Shown: piece by piece, positions 4,243 through 48,789 of the stretch
Numbering within the stretch: the first letter of the stretch is position 1
Layout: each line of letters begins with the position of its first letter
Assembly (NCBI RefSeq): GCF_002843175.1
Contig: NZ_PJEO01000013.1
Span: 1 to 64,000 of the forward strand
Direction: 5' to 3'
DNA: 64,000 bases
Source: Confluentibacter flavum
Lineage (GTDB): Bacteria; Bacteroidota; Bacteroidia; Flavobacteriales; Flavobacteriaceae
The notes under the pieces: model-generated
What the model was told of the DNA's origin: nothing
The model's database searches: none
Seen by the model: the letters and a program-made list of their open reading frames with translations, nothing else
Made by a program: the position numbers and the translations under genes

Positions 4243-4325
4243 AAAAAAAATTATTAAAAAAATTAGGATTTTAAATTTTTCTGACTGAATATTTGCATTC
4301 ACAAAGTTCAAAAACGTATTGAAAT

Positions 4326-4444
4326 GTTATCAAGAAAGGCGGAGGGATTAGACCCTGTGAAGCCTTAGCAACCCTTTATCCGTAAAGAAGGTGCTAAATT
4401 CTACCCACTTCTGAATAATTTTCAGAATAATTTGGATAGATAAC
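4326..4444 (+). ncRNA. SAM-I (S-box) riboswitch upstream of metY
   Basis: The leader contains the S-box core: the P1 strands GTTATCAAG (4326) and GATAAC (ending 4444), a GGCGGAGGGA segment, the GACCC/GUGAAGCC turn, AGCAACC, and the GGTGCTAA-ATTC segment. An AT-rich P4-like hairpin lies at about 4411-4432. Family knowledge: SAM binding stabilises P1 and favours termination. A TATTTG element at 4290-4295 is a possible promoter -7 box. It controls the methionine operon metY, the fusion gene, metZ-like and perhaps phzF. Confidence 0.9.
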
Positions 4445-4450
4445 CAAACG

Positions 4451-25726: not shown

Positions 25727-25768
25727 TTCGCTCGTTCATAAACGTATTTTCATAAACGTATTAATTAT

Positions 25769-25892
25769 GTTATCAAGAAAGGTAGAGGGAATAGACCCGT
25801 TGAAGCCTTGGCAACCCTTTACCTTGTAAAGAAGGTGCTACGTTCTACTGCTTGTCCTGAATTTATTTTCAGGAACTATTCAGAAAGATAAC
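25769..25892 (+). ncRNA. SAM-I (S-box) riboswitch upstream of split metH
   Basis: It has the same parts as the first riboswitch: GTTATCAAG (25769) pairs with GATAAC (ending 25892), with AGGTAGAGGGA, GACCCGTTGAAGCC, GGCAACC and AAGGTGCTA between. A P4-like stem (CCTGAA with TTCAGG) lies at about 25855-25873. It is expected to shut off methionine synthase genes when SAM is plentiful. This copy controls methylation of homocysteine, the first controls homocysteine synthesis. Confidence 0.9.
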
Positions 25893-25917
25893 GAAAAGTG
25901 TTTCTTTTACTTTTCTT
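25893..25917 (+). terminator. Probable expression-platform terminator of the second SAM riboswitch
   Basis: GAAAAGT and ACTTTTC form a 7-bp stem around a nine-base T-rich loop. It starts immediately after the P1 strand, as expected for SAM-I. The T-run after it is short, so either termination is weak or the device acts on translation. Confidence 0.5.
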
Positions 25918-36625: not shown

Positions 36626-37522
36626 TTATTTTGAAGTTAAATCTCTAAAAAGAGATTCTAAACTTGCATTTTTTTGATTAAGCTGTAAAATCTTCAATTG
36701 ATTATCATGTGCAAAATCAAACACATAAGCGCGCATATCATCTGATGTCGAAAAGGTTATTTCATATACAAAATCGTGTGTGTTAACAACGTTTTTTGCT
36801 TTTGGTAATTTTAATAAAAAAGCATCTTCAACTCTATAGTCAAATTCCACAACAACGGTTTGTTCTTTACTATCACGAAGTTCCTGTAGTTTTTTATCAG
36901 CAACAATTTGTCCTTTGTTTATAATGATAACGCGGTCGCACATGGCTTCCACCTCTTGCATGATGTGGGTAGAGAGAAACACGGTTTTTTTCTTGCCAAT
37001 GGTTTTAATTAAATGTCTAATATCCACTAATTGATTGGGATCTAAACCTGTTGTAGGTTCATCAAGAATCAACACTTCTGGGTCATGTAACAAGGCATTT
37101 GCTAAACCCACACGTTGGCGATATCCTTTAGATAATTGGCCTATTTTTTTATGCGATTCTGTAGTTAAGCCCGTTTGTTCAATAACTTCATTAATTCTGT
37201 CTTTCGCAACATTATATATAGTCGCATTGAAGGATAGATATTCTTTAACGTACATATCTAAATACAATGGATTGTTTTCCGGTAAATACCCAACACTTTT
37301 TTGAACACCTTCAACATTATCAGTAACATCATGTCCATTTACCTTGGCATTACCAGCATCACTTTTGAGGAACGTGGTTAAAATTTTCATCATGGTAGAC
37401 TTTCCTGCGCCATTCGGCCCTAGAAAACCAACAATTTCTGGGTTATTTATTTTAAATGATACATTATTTAAAGCTTTTTGGTTTCCGTAAAGTTTAGAAA
37501 CACCTTCAACTTCTATTGACAT
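36626..37522 (-). CDS. gldA: Gliding-motility-type ABC transporter ATPase GldA
   Basis: A 298-residue ABC ATPase. Walker A is GPNGAGKST (residues 35-43), the signature LSKGYRQRVGLANALLHDP follows and Walker B is VLILDEPTTG. GldA with GldF and GldG forms an ABC transporter needed for gliding in Flavobacterium johnsoniae; gldF and gldG are not in this window. Assignment rests on the typical C-terminal domain (residues 220-298) and the taxon. It is divergent from the pheA leader and alone in its transcription unit. Confidence 0.82.
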   Translation of the reverse strand: MSIEVEGVSKLYGNQKALNNVSFKINNPEIVGFLGPNGAGKSTMMKILTTFLKSDAGNAKVNGHDVTDNVEGVQKSVGYLPENNPLYLDMYVKEYLSFNATIYNVAKDRINEVIEQTGLTTESHKKIGQLSKGYRQRVGLANALLHDPEVLILDEPTTGLDPNQLVDIRHLIKTIGKKKTVFLSTHIMQEVEAMCDRVIIINKGQIVADKKLQELRDSKEQTVVVEFDYRVEDAFLLKLPKAKNVVNTHDFVYEITFSTSDDMRAYVFDFAHDNQLKILQLNQKNASLESLFRDLTSK

Positions 37523-37626: not shown

Positions 37627-37656
37627 TTTGATTTATTAAAATATTAATTACTTTAG
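37627..37656 (+). promoter_or_regulatory. Promoter of the pheA attenuator transcript
   Basis: TTTG (37627-37630), an 18-base spacer and TACTTTAG (37649-37656) match the Bacteroidota -33/-7 pattern at seven of eight -7 positions. Transcription would start near 37662, about 90 bases ahead of the leader peptide. Confidence 0.6.
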
Positions 37657-37670
37657 CGGCTTAATTATGA

Positions 37671-37719
37671 AACCTTCATAAAGATTTTAAATTCCTTACG
37701 GAATGATTGAATGAAGGTT
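37671..37719 (+). promoter_or_regulatory. Leader RNA hairpin upstream of the Phe/Tyr leader peptide
   Basis: AACCTTCAT (37671-37679) and ATGAAGGTT (37711-37719) form a perfect 9-bp stem over an AT-rich loop with an inner ATTCC/GGAAT pairing. It lies between promoter and leader peptide. It may pace polymerase or protect the 5' end. Confidence 0.5.
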
Positions 37720-37754
37720 GCATGTAACAATTGGGAAAACAATAAATAACCCAC

Positions 37755-37832
37755 ATGAAAGCAGTATATTATACATATTTTAGCAACTTTTATTTCTTTT
37801 TTAGCAAAAGGATCGAGGCGTTGTATGTATAA
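37755..37832 (+). CDS. Phe/Tyr-rich leader peptide of the pheA operon
   Basis: This 25-codon ORF starts at ATG 37755 and stops at TAA 37830. Residues 5-16 contain nine aromatic residues out of twelve (Tyr 5, 6, 8, 13; Phe 9, 12, 14, 15, 16), and Tyr24 follows. It sits between a good promoter and a strong terminator, upstream of phenylalanine and tyrosine genes. This is the arrangement of classical pheL-type attenuation: starving for Phe or Tyr would stall the ribosome on these codons. It is too short and too rich in aromatic codons to be chance in this position. Confidence 0.85.
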   Translation: MKAVYYTYFSNFYFFFSKRIEALYV

Positions 37833-37885
37833 TTTATAAGATATAAATTTAATATAAGTCTCGATGAAAATCGGGACTTTTTTTT
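37812..37885 (+). terminator. Attenuator: terminator with competing antiterminator of the pheA operon
   Basis: The terminator is AGTCTCGAT (37857-37865), a GAAA loop and ATCGGGACT (37870-37878), nine pairs with one G-U, followed by seven T. The 3' end of the leader ORF (ATCGAGGC, 37812-37819) can pair with GTCTCGAT (37858-37865), the same bases as the terminator 5' arm. A ribosome stalled on the aromatic codons upstream would leave 37812-37819 free to form this antiterminator. A small hairpin (AATTTA with TAAATT) lies between the arms. Confidence 0.8.
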
Positions 37886-37925
37886 GTTCAACTTTTGGTT
37901 GAACAACCTCCATGAAGATGGAGGT
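37886..37925 (+). promoter_or_regulatory. Two small hairpins before the pheA start
   Basis: GTTCAAC with GTTGAAC (37886-37904) and ACCTCCAT with ATGGAGGT (37906-37925) follow the attenuator and end about 20 bases before the pheA start. They have no T-run. They could modulate translation of pheA or be inert. Confidence 0.4.
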
Positions 37926-37946
37926 CTAAAAAATAAAAACTAGATT

Positions 37947-38774
37947 TTGATAAAAACGGTTGCCATACAGGGAATAAGAGGATCTTTTCACCATATTGTT
38001 TCATTGCAATATTTTGAAAAACCTGTCCGCGTTATAGAATGTATGACGTTTGATGGCGTTGTGGAATCTTTAATAACTAATGAGAGTGATGCAGTAATTA
38101 TGGCCTTAGAAAATTCCATTGCGGGATCCATTTTACCTAATTATGCTTTGATAAATAAGCATGATTTGCATATTGTGGGCGAGCATTATTTGGATATTCA
38201 ACATAATTTAATGGCGCTGCCTAATCAAACGATCGAGGATATTAAAGAAGTGTATTCGCATCCCATGGCGTTGTTGCAATGTAAAGAGTTTTTTAGAAAC
38301 TATCCGCATATCAAACTTGTTGAAGATAAAGATACTGCTGAGGTTTCCGAGCGCATCCATAATCATCAACTTAAACAGGTAGGCGCTATTGCAAGTGTTA
38401 TGGCCGCAGACATTTTTGAATTGGATATTTTGGCACACAGTATTCAAACCATAAAACATAATGAAACCAGATTTGCTATTGTTAAAAGAGTAAATTCTGA
38501 AGTTCCTGAAAATGAAATTAACAAAGCTTCACTAAAATTTGAAGCAGACCATAAACGGGGTAGTTTAGCAACCATATTGAATGTGATGAGCGATTGCAAA
38601 TTGAATTTAACTAAGATTCAATCCATGCCCATTATAGAAACACCTTGGAAATATGCTTTTTTTGTTGATGTTACTTTTGAAACGTATGCCGATTTTAAGA
38701 AAGCAAAATCCATTATAGACATTATGGCTATTAATTTTAGAGTATTGGGTGAATATAAAAATGCTAAGTTATGA
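37947..38774 (+). CDS. pheA: Prephenate dehydratase
   Basis: Makes phenylpyruvate from prephenate, the committed step to phenylalanine. The 275-residue protein has the PDT domain (about residues 1-180) with VAIQGIRGSFHH and ALENSIAGSI, and the TR motif NETRFAIV. An ACT domain (about 195-270) follows, which usually binds phenylalanine for feedback. No chorismate mutase domain is fused; that activity is on the last gene of the operon. The apparent start is TTG at 37947, with no nearby in-frame ATG. It overlaps the next gene by four bases. Confidence 0.93.
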   Translation: MIKTVAIQGIRGSFHHIVSLQYFEKPVRVIECMTFDGVVESLITNESDAVIMALENSIAGSILPNYALINKHDLHIVGEHYLDIQHNLMALPNQTIEDIKEVYSHPMALLQCKEFFRNYPHIKLVEDKDTAEVSERIHNHQLKQVGAIASVMAADIFELDILAHSIQTIKHNETRFAIVKRVNSEVPENEINKASLKFEADHKRGSLATILNVMSDCKLNLTKIQSMPIIETPWKYAFFVDVTFETYADFKKAKSIIDIMAINFRVLGEYKNAKL

Positions 38775-39916
38775 TAGAAGTAGCAGATAGATTGAATACT
38801 GTTGAAGAATACTACTTCTCAAAAAAATTAAGAGAGGTAAATTTGCTAATTGCAAATGGAAAGCCTGTTATTAATTTAGGTATTGGTAGCCCAGATATGC
38901 GGCCGCCACAAAAAGTTATTGATGCTTTGGTAGAAAGCTTGCAAGATGTTAATGCGCATAAATACCAGAGTTATCAAGGTCTTCCGGCATTACGTGAAGC
39001 TATGGCTGGATTTTATAAAGAACATTTTAATGTGTCTTTAAGTCAGACAACAGAAATTTTACCATTAATGGGAAGCAAGGAAGGTATTATGCACATTTCT
39101 ATGGCTTTCTTAAATAAAGGAGATGGCGTGTTAATTCCAAATCCGGGATATCCAACATATCAATCGGTGACAAATTTAGTAGAAGCTAAGGCTATGTTTT
39201 ATGAACTAGACGAAACTAACAATTGGTTTCCAGATTTTAAAGCCATTGAAAAGCAAGATTTAAGTAAGGTAAAGTTAATGTGGGTAAATTATCCGCATAT
39301 GCCAACAGGAGCAGGTGCTACTGAGCAATTATTTAAAGATTTAATAGCTTTTGCAAAACGGTATAATATATTAATCGTTAATGATAATCCGTATAGTTTT
39401 GTATTAAACGATTCGCCAAAAAGTATTATGAGCATTCCTGGGGCAAAAGATGTTTGCTTAGAGCTTAATTCGCTTAGTAAAACATTTAATATGGCTGGAT
39501 GGCGTGTAGGTATGGTTGTGGGAGATAGTAATTATATTAACCATATTTTAAAAGTTAAAAGCAATATGGATTCTGGAATGTTTTATGGCATTCAAAAAGG
39601 GGCTATTGAAGCTTTAAAATGTTCAAGCATGTGGTTTGTTACATTAAATAGTGTTTACAGAAAGCGTAGAGAGTTGGTATGGAAACTAGCCAAGGCATTA
39701 CATTGTACGTATGATGAACATGCTACCGGACTTTTTGTTTGGGCAAAATTACCTCCAAACATAAAATCGGAGGCATTTATAGATTCAATATTAAATATCA
39801 ATTATATATTCATAACACCGGGAACCATTTTTGGCAGTAAAGGTGAAGGATATATCAGGTTTTCTTTATGTGCTTCGGAAGAAGAATTAGTGGAAGCCAT
39901 TGCAAGATTAAAATAA
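38771..39916 (+). CDS. Class I/II aminotransferase, probable aromatic aminotransferase
   Basis: A 381-residue PLP aminotransferase of the aspartate aminotransferase fold. INLGIGSPDMRPP near residue 40, NPGYPTYQSVT, NYPHMPTGAGA and SLSKTFNMAGWRVG with the PLP lysine are diagnostic. Its neighbours pheA and tyrA make phenylpyruvate and 4-hydroxyphenylpyruvate, so transamination to Phe and Tyr is the likely job. Other substrates such as LL-diaminopimelate are possible by family. It starts at ATG 38771, overlapping the pheA stop. Confidence 0.87.
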   Translation: MIEVADRLNTVEEYYFSKKLREVNLLIANGKPVINLGIGSPDMRPPQKVIDALVESLQDVNAHKYQSYQGLPALREAMAGFYKEHFNVSLSQTTEILPLMGSKEGIMHISMAFLNKGDGVLIPNPGYPTYQSVTNLVEAKAMFYELDETNNWFPDFKAIEKQDLSKVKLMWVNYPHMPTGAGATEQLFKDLIAFAKRYNILIVNDNPYSFVLNDSPKSIMSIPGAKDVCLELNSLSKTFNMAGWRVGMVVGDSNYINHILKVKSNMDSGMFYGIQKGAIEALKCSSMWFVTLNSVYRKRRELVWKLAKALHCTYDEHATGLFVWAKLPPNIKSEAFIDSILNINYIFITPGTIFGSKGEGYIRFSLCASEEELVEAIARLK

Positions 39917-39999: not shown

Positions 40000-40851
40000 A
40001 TGAAAAATATATACATCATAGGTGTTGGATTAATAGGCGGAAGTTTAGCTTTAGAACTAAAGAGGCTAGACCCTACCGTAACTATTTATGGCATCAGTAG
40101 AAAAGAAACTACTTTAGATGAAGCCATGTCTTTAAACTTAATTGATAGAAAAGCAACTATTGATAACATTGTAAATGCCGATTTAGTGATTTTATCTATT
40201 CCCGTTGATGCCGCGGTTAAGTTATTGCCATCGCTTTTAGATACCATACCAGAAAAAGGATTGGTCATTGATGTAGGATCAACTAAAGAAGCCATTTGTA
40301 AAGTGGTTGAAAATCATCCCAAAAGAAAGCATTTTTTAGCCATGCATCCCATAGCAGGAACCGAATATTCTGGTCCTAAGGCAGCTATATATGATTTGTT
40401 TCAAAATAAAACCAACATCATTTGTGAAGAGGATAAAACAGATGAAGCTCTTAAGAATAAAGTGTTGAATTTTTTCACTACAATTGGCATGAAACTAAGG
40501 CGCATGAATCCAGAGTCACATGATAAGCACATTGCGTATGTCTCTCATTTATCGCATATCAGTTCATTTATGTTGGGTAAAACCGTTATTGAAAAAGAAA
40601 AAAATGAACGCGATATTTTTGATATGGCTGGGAGTGGATTTGCTTCAACGGTGAGACTTGCAAAAAGTTCACCAGAAATGTGGACTCCCATTTTCAAACA
40701 GAATAAAGTTAATGTTATTGAAACATTAGAAGAATATATTACAAACCTCACTCATTTTAGGGATATGATGAAACAAGATGATTTTGAAGCCATTTATAAT
40801 GAGATGAAAAATACCAATCATATAAAAGACATATTAAAAGGAATCAATTAA
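40000..40851 (+). CDS. tyrA: Prephenate dehydrogenase
   Basis: Oxidatively decarboxylates prephenate to 4-hydroxyphenylpyruvate, the tyrosine branch. The 283-residue protein begins with a Rossmann fold (IYIIGVGLIGGSLALEL) and has SIPVDAAV, DVGSTKEAI, HPIAGTEYSGP and the helical SHLSHISSFML. No ACT domain is seen, so tyrosine feedback is likely absent or elsewhere. It sits between the aminotransferase and the DAHP synthase gene, so it is coexpressed with them. Confidence 0.93.
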   Translation: MKNIYIIGVGLIGGSLALELKRLDPTVTIYGISRKETTLDEAMSLNLIDRKATIDNIVNADLVILSIPVDAAVKLLPSLLDTIPEKGLVIDVGSTKEAICKVVENHPKRKHFLAMHPIAGTEYSGPKAAIYDLFQNKTNIICEEDKTDEALKNKVLNFFTTIGMKLRRMNPESHDKHIAYVSHLSHISSFMLGKTVIEKEKNERDIFDMAGSGFASTVRLAKSSPEMWTPIFKQNKVNVIETLEEYITNLTHFRDMMKQDDFEAIYNEMKNTNHIKDILKGIN

Positions 40852-40965
40852 AGTAAAAAGTAATAGTTAAAAAGTAAAAGTTAATAAATTAATAGAAATA
40901 GATTTTTTCCGCTTGTACTGAGCAAAGTCGAAGTATTGGGAAACTATCTGAAAGACAAAAGGGAT
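40852..40965. repeat. Repeats before the DAHP synthase gene
   Basis: The gap holds AAAGTAAAAGTTAA-type low complexity (40852-40890) and a CTTGTACTGAGCAAAGTCGA segment (40911-40930). The latter looks like an interspersed element, but it occurs once here. No terminator was seen, so read-through from tyrA is likely. Confidence 0.4.
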
Positions 40966-42048
40966 ATGGAAAACAAGAAGGAATTAAGAGGCTGGTTAGA
41001 TGATTTAAATTTAGATCATCCTTTGGTTATCGCAGGACCATGCAGTGCAGAAACAGAAGAACAAGTATTAAGAATAGCTCACGAGCTAAAAGATACGGAT
41101 GTTAACTATTACAGAGCAGGCATTTGGAAACCAAGAACACGACCAGGCATGTTTGAAGGCGTTGGGGCTTTGGGTTTAAAATGGTTGCAAAAAGTAAAAG
41201 CTGAAACTGGTATGAAAACAGCAACCGAAGTTGCTAATGCAGCCCATGTAAAATTAGCTTTAGAGCATGATGTAGATTTATTATGGATTGGCGCACGCTC
41301 CACAGTGAGTCCGTTTATTGTTCAGGAAATTGCAGATGCCTTAAATGGAACCGATAAAATCGTATTGGTTAAAAACCCAGTGAATCCAGATTTGGCCTTA
41401 TGGTTAGGTGCTATTGAACGTTTGGCAACGGCTAATATTAAAAAATTAGGAGTCATTCATAGAGGGTTTTCAACATACGAAAAAACAAAATACAGAAATA
41501 ATCCAGAATGGCAATTGGCGATTGAGTTACAAACAAAATTTCCAGATTTACCAATAATTAATGACCCATCACATATTACGGGAAAACGAGATATGATTTT
41601 TGATGTGTCTCAAACGGCTTTGGATTTGAATTTTGATGGATTAATGATTGAAACACATTTTGATCCAGATAATGCTTGGAGTGATGCATCTCAGCAAGTA
41701 ACACCAAAAGTATTGATTCAAATTATGAAAGATTTGAAGATAAAAAAAGAGACCGATCCCGAAGCGGACTATAATAAGAATCTTGATAATTTAAGGGCTC
41801 AAATTGATATTGTAGATAATCAAATTATAGATTTACTTGGTAAGCGAATGAAAGCTGCCGATAGTATTGGAGTTCTTAAAAAACAAAAAAACGTTGCCGT
41901 TTTACAATCCAAACGGTGGAATGAAATATTAGGCAAAATGGTTCTTGAAGGAGAATCTAAAGGATTAAGCGAAGAGTTTGTTTTAAAAATGTTTAAAGCG
42001 ATTCATCAAGAATCCATCAATCACCAAGAGAAGATTATTAATGGTTAA
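40966..42048 (+). CDS. Bifunctional DAHP synthase / chorismate mutase
   Basis: Residues 1-265 are a 3-deoxy-7-phosphoheptulonate synthase of the AroG/KdsA-like type, with AGPCSAET, WKPRTRPGMFEG, GARSTVSPFI, KNPVNPD and NDPSHITGKRD. Residues 275-360 are an AroQ chorismate mutase helix bundle (LRAQIDIVDNQIIDLLGKRM). Thus one chain catalyses the first and the branch-point reactions. I place the start at ATG 40966, not the upstream TTG, giving 360 residues, which is the usual length. The gene closes the pheA operon and ends at a strong bidirectional terminator. Confidence 0.92.
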   Translation: MENKKELRGWLDDLNLDHPLVIAGPCSAETEEQVLRIAHELKDTDVNYYRAGIWKPRTRPGMFEGVGALGLKWLQKVKAETGMKTATEVANAAHVKLALEHDVDLLWIGARSTVSPFIVQEIADALNGTDKIVLVKNPVNPDLALWLGAIERLATANIKKLGVIHRGFSTYEKTKYRNNPEWQLAIELQTKFPDLPIINDPSHITGKRDMIFDVSQTALDLNFDGLMIETHFDPDNAWSDASQQVTPKVLIQIMKDLKIKKETDPEADYNKNLDNLRAQIDIVDNQIIDLLGKRMKAADSIGVLKKQKNVAVLQSKRWNEILGKMVLEGESKGLSEEFVLKMFKAIHQESINHQEKIING

Positions 42049-48463: not shown

Positions 48464-48789
48464 TGGACATTAAAAACGCACAAATAATAGTAGATGATTG
48501 GATAAGAGACCATGGCGTTCGCTACTTTAACGAACTTACCAACATGGCACAACTTACCGAAGAAGTAGGTGAGGTAGCACGTATTATTGCGCGCCGCTAT
48601 GGTGAGCAAAGCGAAAAGGAAAGTGATAAGGATAAAGATTTGGGAGAAGAACTCGCCGATGTTTTATTTGTGGTCTTGTGCTTGGCTAACCAAACAGGTG
48701 TCGATTTACAAGAGGCTTTTAATAAGCGAATGGACAAGAAAGCTAAACGCGATCATGATAGGCATCATAATAATGAAAAATTAAAATAA
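48463..48789 (+). CDS. MazG-like nucleotide pyrophosphohydrolase
   Basis: A 108-residue all-alpha NTP pyrophosphatase. The metal-binding motif EEVGEVARIIARRYG and later GEELADVLFVVLCLANQTG give the EExxE...ExxD pattern. A basic C-terminal tail (KKAKRDHDRHHNN) is rich in Lys and His. The substrate, usually a non-canonical or dNTP, is not known. It is the third gene of the DUF3857 operon and is followed by a strong terminator. Confidence 0.85.
   Translation: MDIKNAQIIVDDWIRDHGVRYFNELTNMAQLTEEVGEVARIIARRYGEQSEKESDKDKDLGEELADVLFVVLCLANQTGVDLQEAFNKRMDKKAKRDHDRHHNNEKLK

Follow-up and report, generated by a model that had tools for sequence, protein, structure and literature searches.

A candidate ribosome-mediated attenuator with Phe and Tyr codons upstream of pheA in Confluentibacter flavum, with Trp- and Tyr-codon leaders in relatives

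The stretch of DNA considered here, 64,000 nucleotides in length and referred to below as the window, carries the genes pheA, aminotransferase, tyrA and aroG/CM in this order. The order was kept in 17 of 20 relatives picked for comparison; one of the exceptions is without the aminotransferase, and the other two are without both the aminotransferase and tyrA. A divergent gene upstream of pheA serves as a marker of synteny and encodes an ATPase that we take to be gldA-like by name; its N-terminal part lies divergently upstream at 49 of 90 pheA loci. The interval between these genes contains a promoter, a short reading frame rich in aromatic codons and an intrinsic terminator, laid out as follows.

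36626-37522, minus strand: divergent ABC-type ATPase, marker of synteny (ORF read in the window)
37627-37656, plus strand: Bacteroidota-type promoter, read from the sequence as TTTG (37627-37630), 18 nt and TACTTTAG (37649-37656)
37664-37750, plus strand: 5' insert with a hairpin (AACCTTCAT...ATGAAGGTT), from by-eye comparison with relatives
37755-37832, plus strand: predicted leader peptide ORF, MKAVYYTYFSNFYFFFSKRIEALYV and a stop, 25 codons, ten of them Phe/Tyr
37770-37777, plus strand: region 1 (TATACATA), forming a predicted pause helix with 37824-37831 (fold and covariation)
37788-37802, plus strand: aromatic core, codons 12-16 (FYFFF), the proposed main stall sites (codon-position pattern)
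37812-37819, plus strand: region 2 (ATCGAGGC), 5' strand of the predicted antiterminator, inside the ORF (pairing, folds and alignment)
37824-37831, plus strand: 3' strand of the region-1 helix (TATGTATA), overlapping the stop codon (covariation)
37858-37865, plus strand: region 3 (GTCTCGAT), the arm that antiterminator and terminator have in common (pairing and alignment)
37856-37885, plus strand: intrinsic terminator and U-run, with stem 37856-37865/37870-37879, GAAA loop and T from 37878 to 37885
37886-37946, plus strand: pair of additional hairpins in the variable interval from terminator to pheA (fold and by-eye comparison)
37947-38774, plus strand: pheA, prephenate dehydratase (PDT; Pfam), with a TTG start and an ACT domain below its cut-off
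38771-39916, plus strand: class I/II aminotransferase (Pfam)
40000-40851, plus strand: tyrA, prephenate dehydrogenase (Pfam)
40936-42048, plus strand: aroG/CM, DAHP synthase fused to chorismate mutase (Pfam)

The 25-codon ORF with ten Phe/Tyr codons that had been reported in a first-pass annotation of this DNA was recovered at 37755-37832, as was the hairpin downstream of it (37856-37879); the earlier description of the latter as a 9-bp stem with a GAAA loop and seven T represents one way of drawing the border between stem and tail. Pairing between the 3' part of the ORF and the 5' arm of the terminator, also proposed at that stage, was borne out as eight base pairs, including one G-U, between regions 2 and 3. 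The promoter placed upstream of the ORF fits the Bacteroidota-type consensus, and a scan for sigma-70 promoters reported no site at 37627-37656. Among the 83 leaders tabulated from relatives and the window (see below), a TAnnTT[ATG]G element lies no more than 110 nt before the leader ATG in 75, vs. nine of 83 on the reverse strand.

The stretches flanking the ORF and terminator fold readily (-19.4 kcal/mol, z -4.2 for 37660-37740; -22.1 kcal/mol, z -4.8 for 37881-37946), and several relatives are without both the extra hairpin that the window carries between promoter and ORF and the two between terminator and pheA. By eye, the insert between promoter and leader is common to the window and L005, reduced in L002, and missing in L003 and L004. 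The leader ATG of L003, L004 and L006 corresponds to the start of the insert position, where the counterpart in the window (37667) opens only MKPS and a stop. The post-terminator hairpins are absent in L002-L005 and have a diverged relative in L007. No second copy of the insert (37664-37750) or of the post-terminator hairpins (37886-37946) was found in a check of the genome itself for mobile repeats. Among the 83 leaders, terminator and pheA are 6 to 517 nt apart, and in L019 the interval between them holds, by eye, several tandem copies of a unit of ~100 nt with palindromes. Elsewhere in the window, a small ORF and then a very strong terminator-like hairpin occur at 48659-48784, with no leader-like codon content apparent.

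A search of 149 genomes, the source genome included, identified pheA homologues in 103, and the upstream DNA was read at all 103. At 86 of these loci, that of the window among them, pheA is preceded by an aromatic leader ORF and then a terminator, and the arms covary, which answers the first-pass proposal that the leader ORF and arm pairing be sought in relatives. The 86 comprise 83 found by script, after removal of the false hit L078, together with L018, L091 and L093; the leader of L018 is cut by a contig end yet legible, and was matched by model R1. L092 cannot be judged and was left out of the leader count. The 16 pheA loci without a leader (five 0.6-Mb genomes of f16, seven f5 loci with divergent PheA, L055, L069, L071 and L078) count against the attenuator reading. 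A strict filter for an aromatic ORF and a strong terminator, run on the first 90 loci, passed 76 of the 90 upstream regions vs. none of 1800 dinucleotide shuffles, and when applied to both strands of the 64-kb window it passed the pheA leader locus alone. In the source genome, model R1 gave 2.5e-19 for this locus and 0.07 for the next of 31 listed matches. Nineteen R1 matches outside the known pheA loci (L112-L130), among the matches listed for the 149 relatives, were fetched. One of them, L112, lies where its contig ends and lacks its gene; two of the other 18 led to the Trp and Tyr leaders described below, and the remainder were rejected as leaders on looking, by eye, like ordinary terminators.

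These figures bear on whether an AT-rich intergenic stretch might yield TTT and TAT codons by chance, in front of a hairpin that is an ordinary terminator or pause site. Although the leader stretch is AT-rich, and sigma-70-type promoter-like sites are no commoner in it than in shuffles, an accident of composition is contradicted by conservation and covariation of the leader, by the failure of all 1800 shuffles to pass the strict filter, and by an aromatic content over the 83 leaders of 0.389 in frame vs. 0.128 and 0.174 in the other two frames. We regard such an accident as scarcely credible.

The nature of the constraint on the ORF emerges from a codon alignment of 54 of the 83 leaders (alignment A1). 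At codons 13-16, the first position is T in all 54 leaders, the second is T or A with a single C, and the third is T or C with a single A. The core nucleotides therefore vary as Phe and Tyr codons may vary, which is a codon-shaped constraint, and from it we infer that the ORF is translated. Codons for both Phe and Tyr are present in each of the 83 tabulated leaders, and Trp codons as well in 44, which fits the earlier suggestion that the leader may respond to both Phe and Tyr.

The RNA arms were assessed by pairing energy, position and covariation. Region 2 pairs with the terminator arm of its own leader at a mean of -11.23 kcal/mol over 83 loci, vs. -7.96 (sd 0.23) with permuted arms, where the best of 5000 permutations reached -8.77, and -6.76 with arms of another sequence class; a single arm class accounts for 46 of the 83 loci, which counts against the attenuator reading. 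Across the same loci, 3-13 nt separate the aromatic core from the start of region 2, whose end falls between -20 and +13 nt relative to the end of the stop codon. Judged by the size of the ribosome footprint, this spacing is as expected if a ribosome stalled in the core leaves region 2 free and one at the stop codon covers it. Changes on both sides of a pair occur among the 54 aligned leaders in six of eight pairs of the antiterminator, all eight of the region-1 helix and seven of eight of the terminator. Because RNAalifold run unaided on A1 recovered the terminator only, and neither the antiterminator nor the region-1 helix, the other helices were counted on supplied structures. The antiterminator stands modestly above column shuffles of A1 (75.6 vs. 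72.9% of cells paired, one of 500 shuffles being as high), and the region-1 helix scores higher on covariation when slid by -2 columns (0.213 vs. 0.191). When folded computationally, the free leader of the window (37755-37890) is predicted to adopt the region-1 helix and the terminator, the segment 37806-37890 the antiterminator (-20.7), and the segment 37842-37890 the terminator (-13.0). The predicted folds switch as ribosome-stalling attenuation would have it, in support of the logic first put forward for this locus.

The locus combines the features by which ribosome-mediated transcription attenuators are recognized: a leader ORF with cognate codons under codon-shaped constraint, presumably translated, an antiterminator that shares an arm with the terminator, as judged from pairing and position, and a terminator before the first structural gene, as read from sequence only. 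A ribosome would translate the aromatic ORF as RNA polymerase advances through the leader. A shortage of Phe-tRNA or Tyr-tRNA would stall the ribosome within codons 5-16, leaving region 2 free to pair with region 3, so that no terminator would form and the operon would be transcribed. With both tRNAs charged, the ribosome would reach the stop codon and cover region 2, region 3 would pair with region 4, and this pairing would end transcription near 37885. Should translation fail, both the region-1 helix and the terminator would form, and the operon would be off. Transcription would accordingly terminate in vivo in response to tRNA charging, with relative weights for the individual amino acids that we infer. 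The parts of the leader, their conservation and covariation, the codon-shaped constraint, and the match, considered below, between its codons and the products that the downstream genes still make are features of the DNA itself. Together they suggest, with a probability of about 0.92, that a ribosome-mediated transcription attenuator controls the pheA-aminotransferase-tyrA-aroG/CM operon, and that translation of the leader ORF most likely decides whether the Phe/Tyr pathway is on.

The match between codons and products is most apparent where the downstream genes have changed. Fourteen genomes of the family gave no pheA match and no Pfam PDT match, and the DNA upstream of aroG/CM was read in 12 of them. 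In one of the 12, G066, the contig is a fragment, and part of tyrA lies immediately before aroG/CM; no tyrA match was found among the other 11. A trpB match above cut-off is present in seven of these 11 (G031, G037, G046, G058, G077, G078 and G082), and in six of the seven a leader with consecutive Trp codons (Trp-Trp), followed by a terminator, stands directly before aroG/CM, e.g., MYNTSLYWWHPYKL and MTTRSNFWWHHITN. The seventh, G046, has trpB yet no Trp leader at aroG/CM, and no Trp-Trp leader was found at aroG/CM in G026, G045, G057 and G059, where trpB is not above cut-off. The combination of Trp-Trp and terminator did not arise in 2400 shuffles of the 12 regions, under a filter that, like the Tyr-run filter below, was set after the leaders had been seen. 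The Trp-Trp leader loci are L115, L183, L186, L189, L190 and L191, and GGGATTATTG follows closely after the stop in L183, L186 and L191. Five of the six share the divergent gldA-like gene of the window, the sixth having been fetched to 200 nt upstream only, so that the Trp leaders appear to occupy the same place with pheA-aminotransferase-tyrA gone. Judged on this synteny only, they probably descend from a Phe/Tyr leader.

A second variant precedes genes for phenylalanine hydroxylase-like proteins (Pfam Biopterin_H), for which the best six matches were read upstream. Two of the six, at L113/L152 (G046) and L153 (G112), have a leader with four or five consecutive Tyr codons and a terminator (MKNLNNTYYYYPILTRRIGQ and MNNNCTYYYYYTDPNWN), a combination absent from 1200 shuffles; no leader was found upstream of the other four, that of the source genome included. 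The predicted antiterminators of the Trp and Tyr leaders, eight in all, are weak and pair scarcely better with their own arms than with foreign ones (mean -7.9 vs. -7.3); the case for these leaders therefore rests on codons, place and terminator. Codons are not matched to gene content everywhere. G046 is one exception; the others are G016, G043, G067 and G080, which have PDT and no match to the tyrA of the window, and whose leaders keep Tyr. These four have distant hydroxylase-like matches and, given these, may make Tyr from Phe. As a natural experiment, the Trp and Tyr leaders provide the strongest hint that codons are what is sensed. At five f5 loci (L194-L196, L198 and L199), a Phe/Tyr-rich frame upstream of aroG/CM ends in RFYWYC or RFYYWYC and a stop, with no clear terminator after it by eye; this may be another kind of leader.

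That codons follow product bears on two further explanations of the leader. One supposes that its RNA binds a ligand or protein, as a riboswitch, a T-box or the target of an RNA-binding protein, with the ORF incidental. The whole leader RNA (37657-37946) does fold better than shuffles (-74.2 kcal/mol, z -5.8), as such an element might. At gathering scores, however, Rfam families were matched in the window only by two SAM riboswitches (RF00162, plus strand, 4324-4446 and 25767-25894, 74 and 73.7 bits), and by nothing in the leader, Bacteroid-trp (RF01692) included. A permissive search gave ten weak matches there, the best of which, BSnc120 on the minus strand (28.1 of 114 bits, E 0.00018), was taken for an effect of palindromes and rejected. 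With the codon-shaped constraint added to these results, a binding leader seems very improbable. The other explanation retains the ORF and has the leader peptide sense free Phe or Tyr from within the ribosomal tunnel, arresting translation without uncharged tRNA, much as TnaC senses Trp as a nascent peptide. Among members of the family, conservation of the peptide is good outside the core as well (..NWFYFFFSKRNETLYV and similar), as arrest would favor. Across the class, however, the peptides differ save for their aromatic runs, F and Y interchange in the core, third positions vary, and Trp and Tyr versions exist. The conserved C-terminal residues, moreover, fall on region 2 and the region-1 helix, and their conservation can therefore be explained by RNA pairing. 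Arrest by the nascent peptide is thus improbable, if somewhat less so than a binding leader, and stalling at cognate codons is preferred.

The attenuator reading extends beyond the family. In a class-level sample of 149 genomes, including that of the window, PDT was found in 39 and 30 loci were returned, of which 21, the window's own included, have an aromatic leader and terminator under a looser filter that none of 1200 shuffles of these regions passed; nine are without. The 20 further leader loci span ten families besides that of the window. Duplexes with their own arms average -11.16, vs. -8.35 (sd 0.37) when permuted, over 32 units made up of the six Trp and two Tyr leaders, three units of L093, one of L091, two of L227 and 18 class-level leaders. 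No antiterminator pairing was found in one class-level leader, L216. Two loci carry aromatic leader-terminator units in series before pheA: three units in L093:351-790 (G112; MYTFVFYMKHITENKAFSFEAFFFNRKTQA, MNNLVSTFRFFGFFFFRKEGAMS and MNQNTQQNFSFFGFFFFKWKSEAVD) and two in L227 (G289; MAYRSAYYFYFFCFFSSCRG and MNCMGYTYYYFFSLMDHRRLWVV). The pheA match of L093 is interrupted by one TAG. We lean toward viewing the leader as an ancient attenuator with several aromatic inputs, found in no fewer than ten other families of the class, whose codons have been rewritten as the downstream pathway changed. On this view, it carries Phe and Tyr codons, with or without Trp, where the operon is complete, Trp-Trp in the same position where pheA-aminotransferase-tyrA has been lost, and Tyr runs upstream of phenylalanine hydroxylase. 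Its stacking in series, with three units in one genome and two in another, would serve steeper or combined control.

Attenuation as such is classical, and the interest of the present case lies in the retuning of codons. The enterobacterial pheA leader (pheL), like that of the window, has a cognate-codon ORF and mutually exclusive antiterminator and terminator before pheA. Its codons are for Phe only, whereas the leader described here combines Phe with Tyr and, across relatives, often Trp, and the operon downstream also includes tyrA and a DAHP synthase. The window leader does not belong to the corresponding Rfam family, Phe_leader (RF01859), with scores of 19.3 bits on the plus strand and 19.2 bits on the minus strand vs. 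a cut-off of 55. The ilv leaders, in which mixed Ile, Val and Leu codons allow one leader to serve several end products, are similar in principle, although they concern branched-chain rather than aromatic amino acids. Attenuators beyond Proteobacteria have reportedly been treated comparatively by Vitreschak in 2004 and Lopatovskaya in 2010, and because of such older work we do not claim that the leader is absent from print. No description of the leader peptide, arms and retuning was found in the literature searched, including the portions consulted of PMC9723704, PMC7366714, PMC4833913, PMC2864571, PMC1262725, PMC6429828, PMC8632094 and PMC2965389. This partly upholds the first-pass remark that its author knew of no detailed account for Flavobacteriia: the peptide and arms were not found described, but a 5' element of pheA and clues for attenuation in Flavobacterium psychrophilum are on record (PMC9723704, in the portion consulted). 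According to that portion, a structured and transcribed 5' element precedes pheA in F. psychrophilum and is conserved in other Flavobacteriaceae with no Rfam hit, and there are clues for leader-peptide attenuation before amino acid operons in general (PMC9723704). The element lies in the same place as the window leader; the relevant section describes neither peptide nor arms nor codon content for pheA, and the two are likened by description rather than sequence. Short uORFs that contain Phe and Tyr and precede shikimate genes (PMC6429828) and uORFC-13-1, with Phe and a terminator before aroF in Acholeplasma (PMC8632094), are similar as far as the excerpts of these sources go, both being short Phe uORFs before aromatic-pathway genes; the source genomes of the two PMC6429828 uORFs are not stated there. 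Bacteroid-trp (RF01692) is likewise a cis-regulatory motif of Bacteroidetes, associated with trp by name in the part of the source consulted (PMC2864571), and differs in having no match in the window leader.

The leader and its relatives document what is probably ribosome-mediated attenuation of aromatic amino acid synthesis in a group for which little was found in print, and provide about a hundred leaders for comparison. They constitute a natural experiment in which the sensing codons appear to differ according to the end product, with place and terminator unchanged. Both the integration of two or three amino acids by a single leader and the evolutionary retuning of leaders thereby become directly testable.
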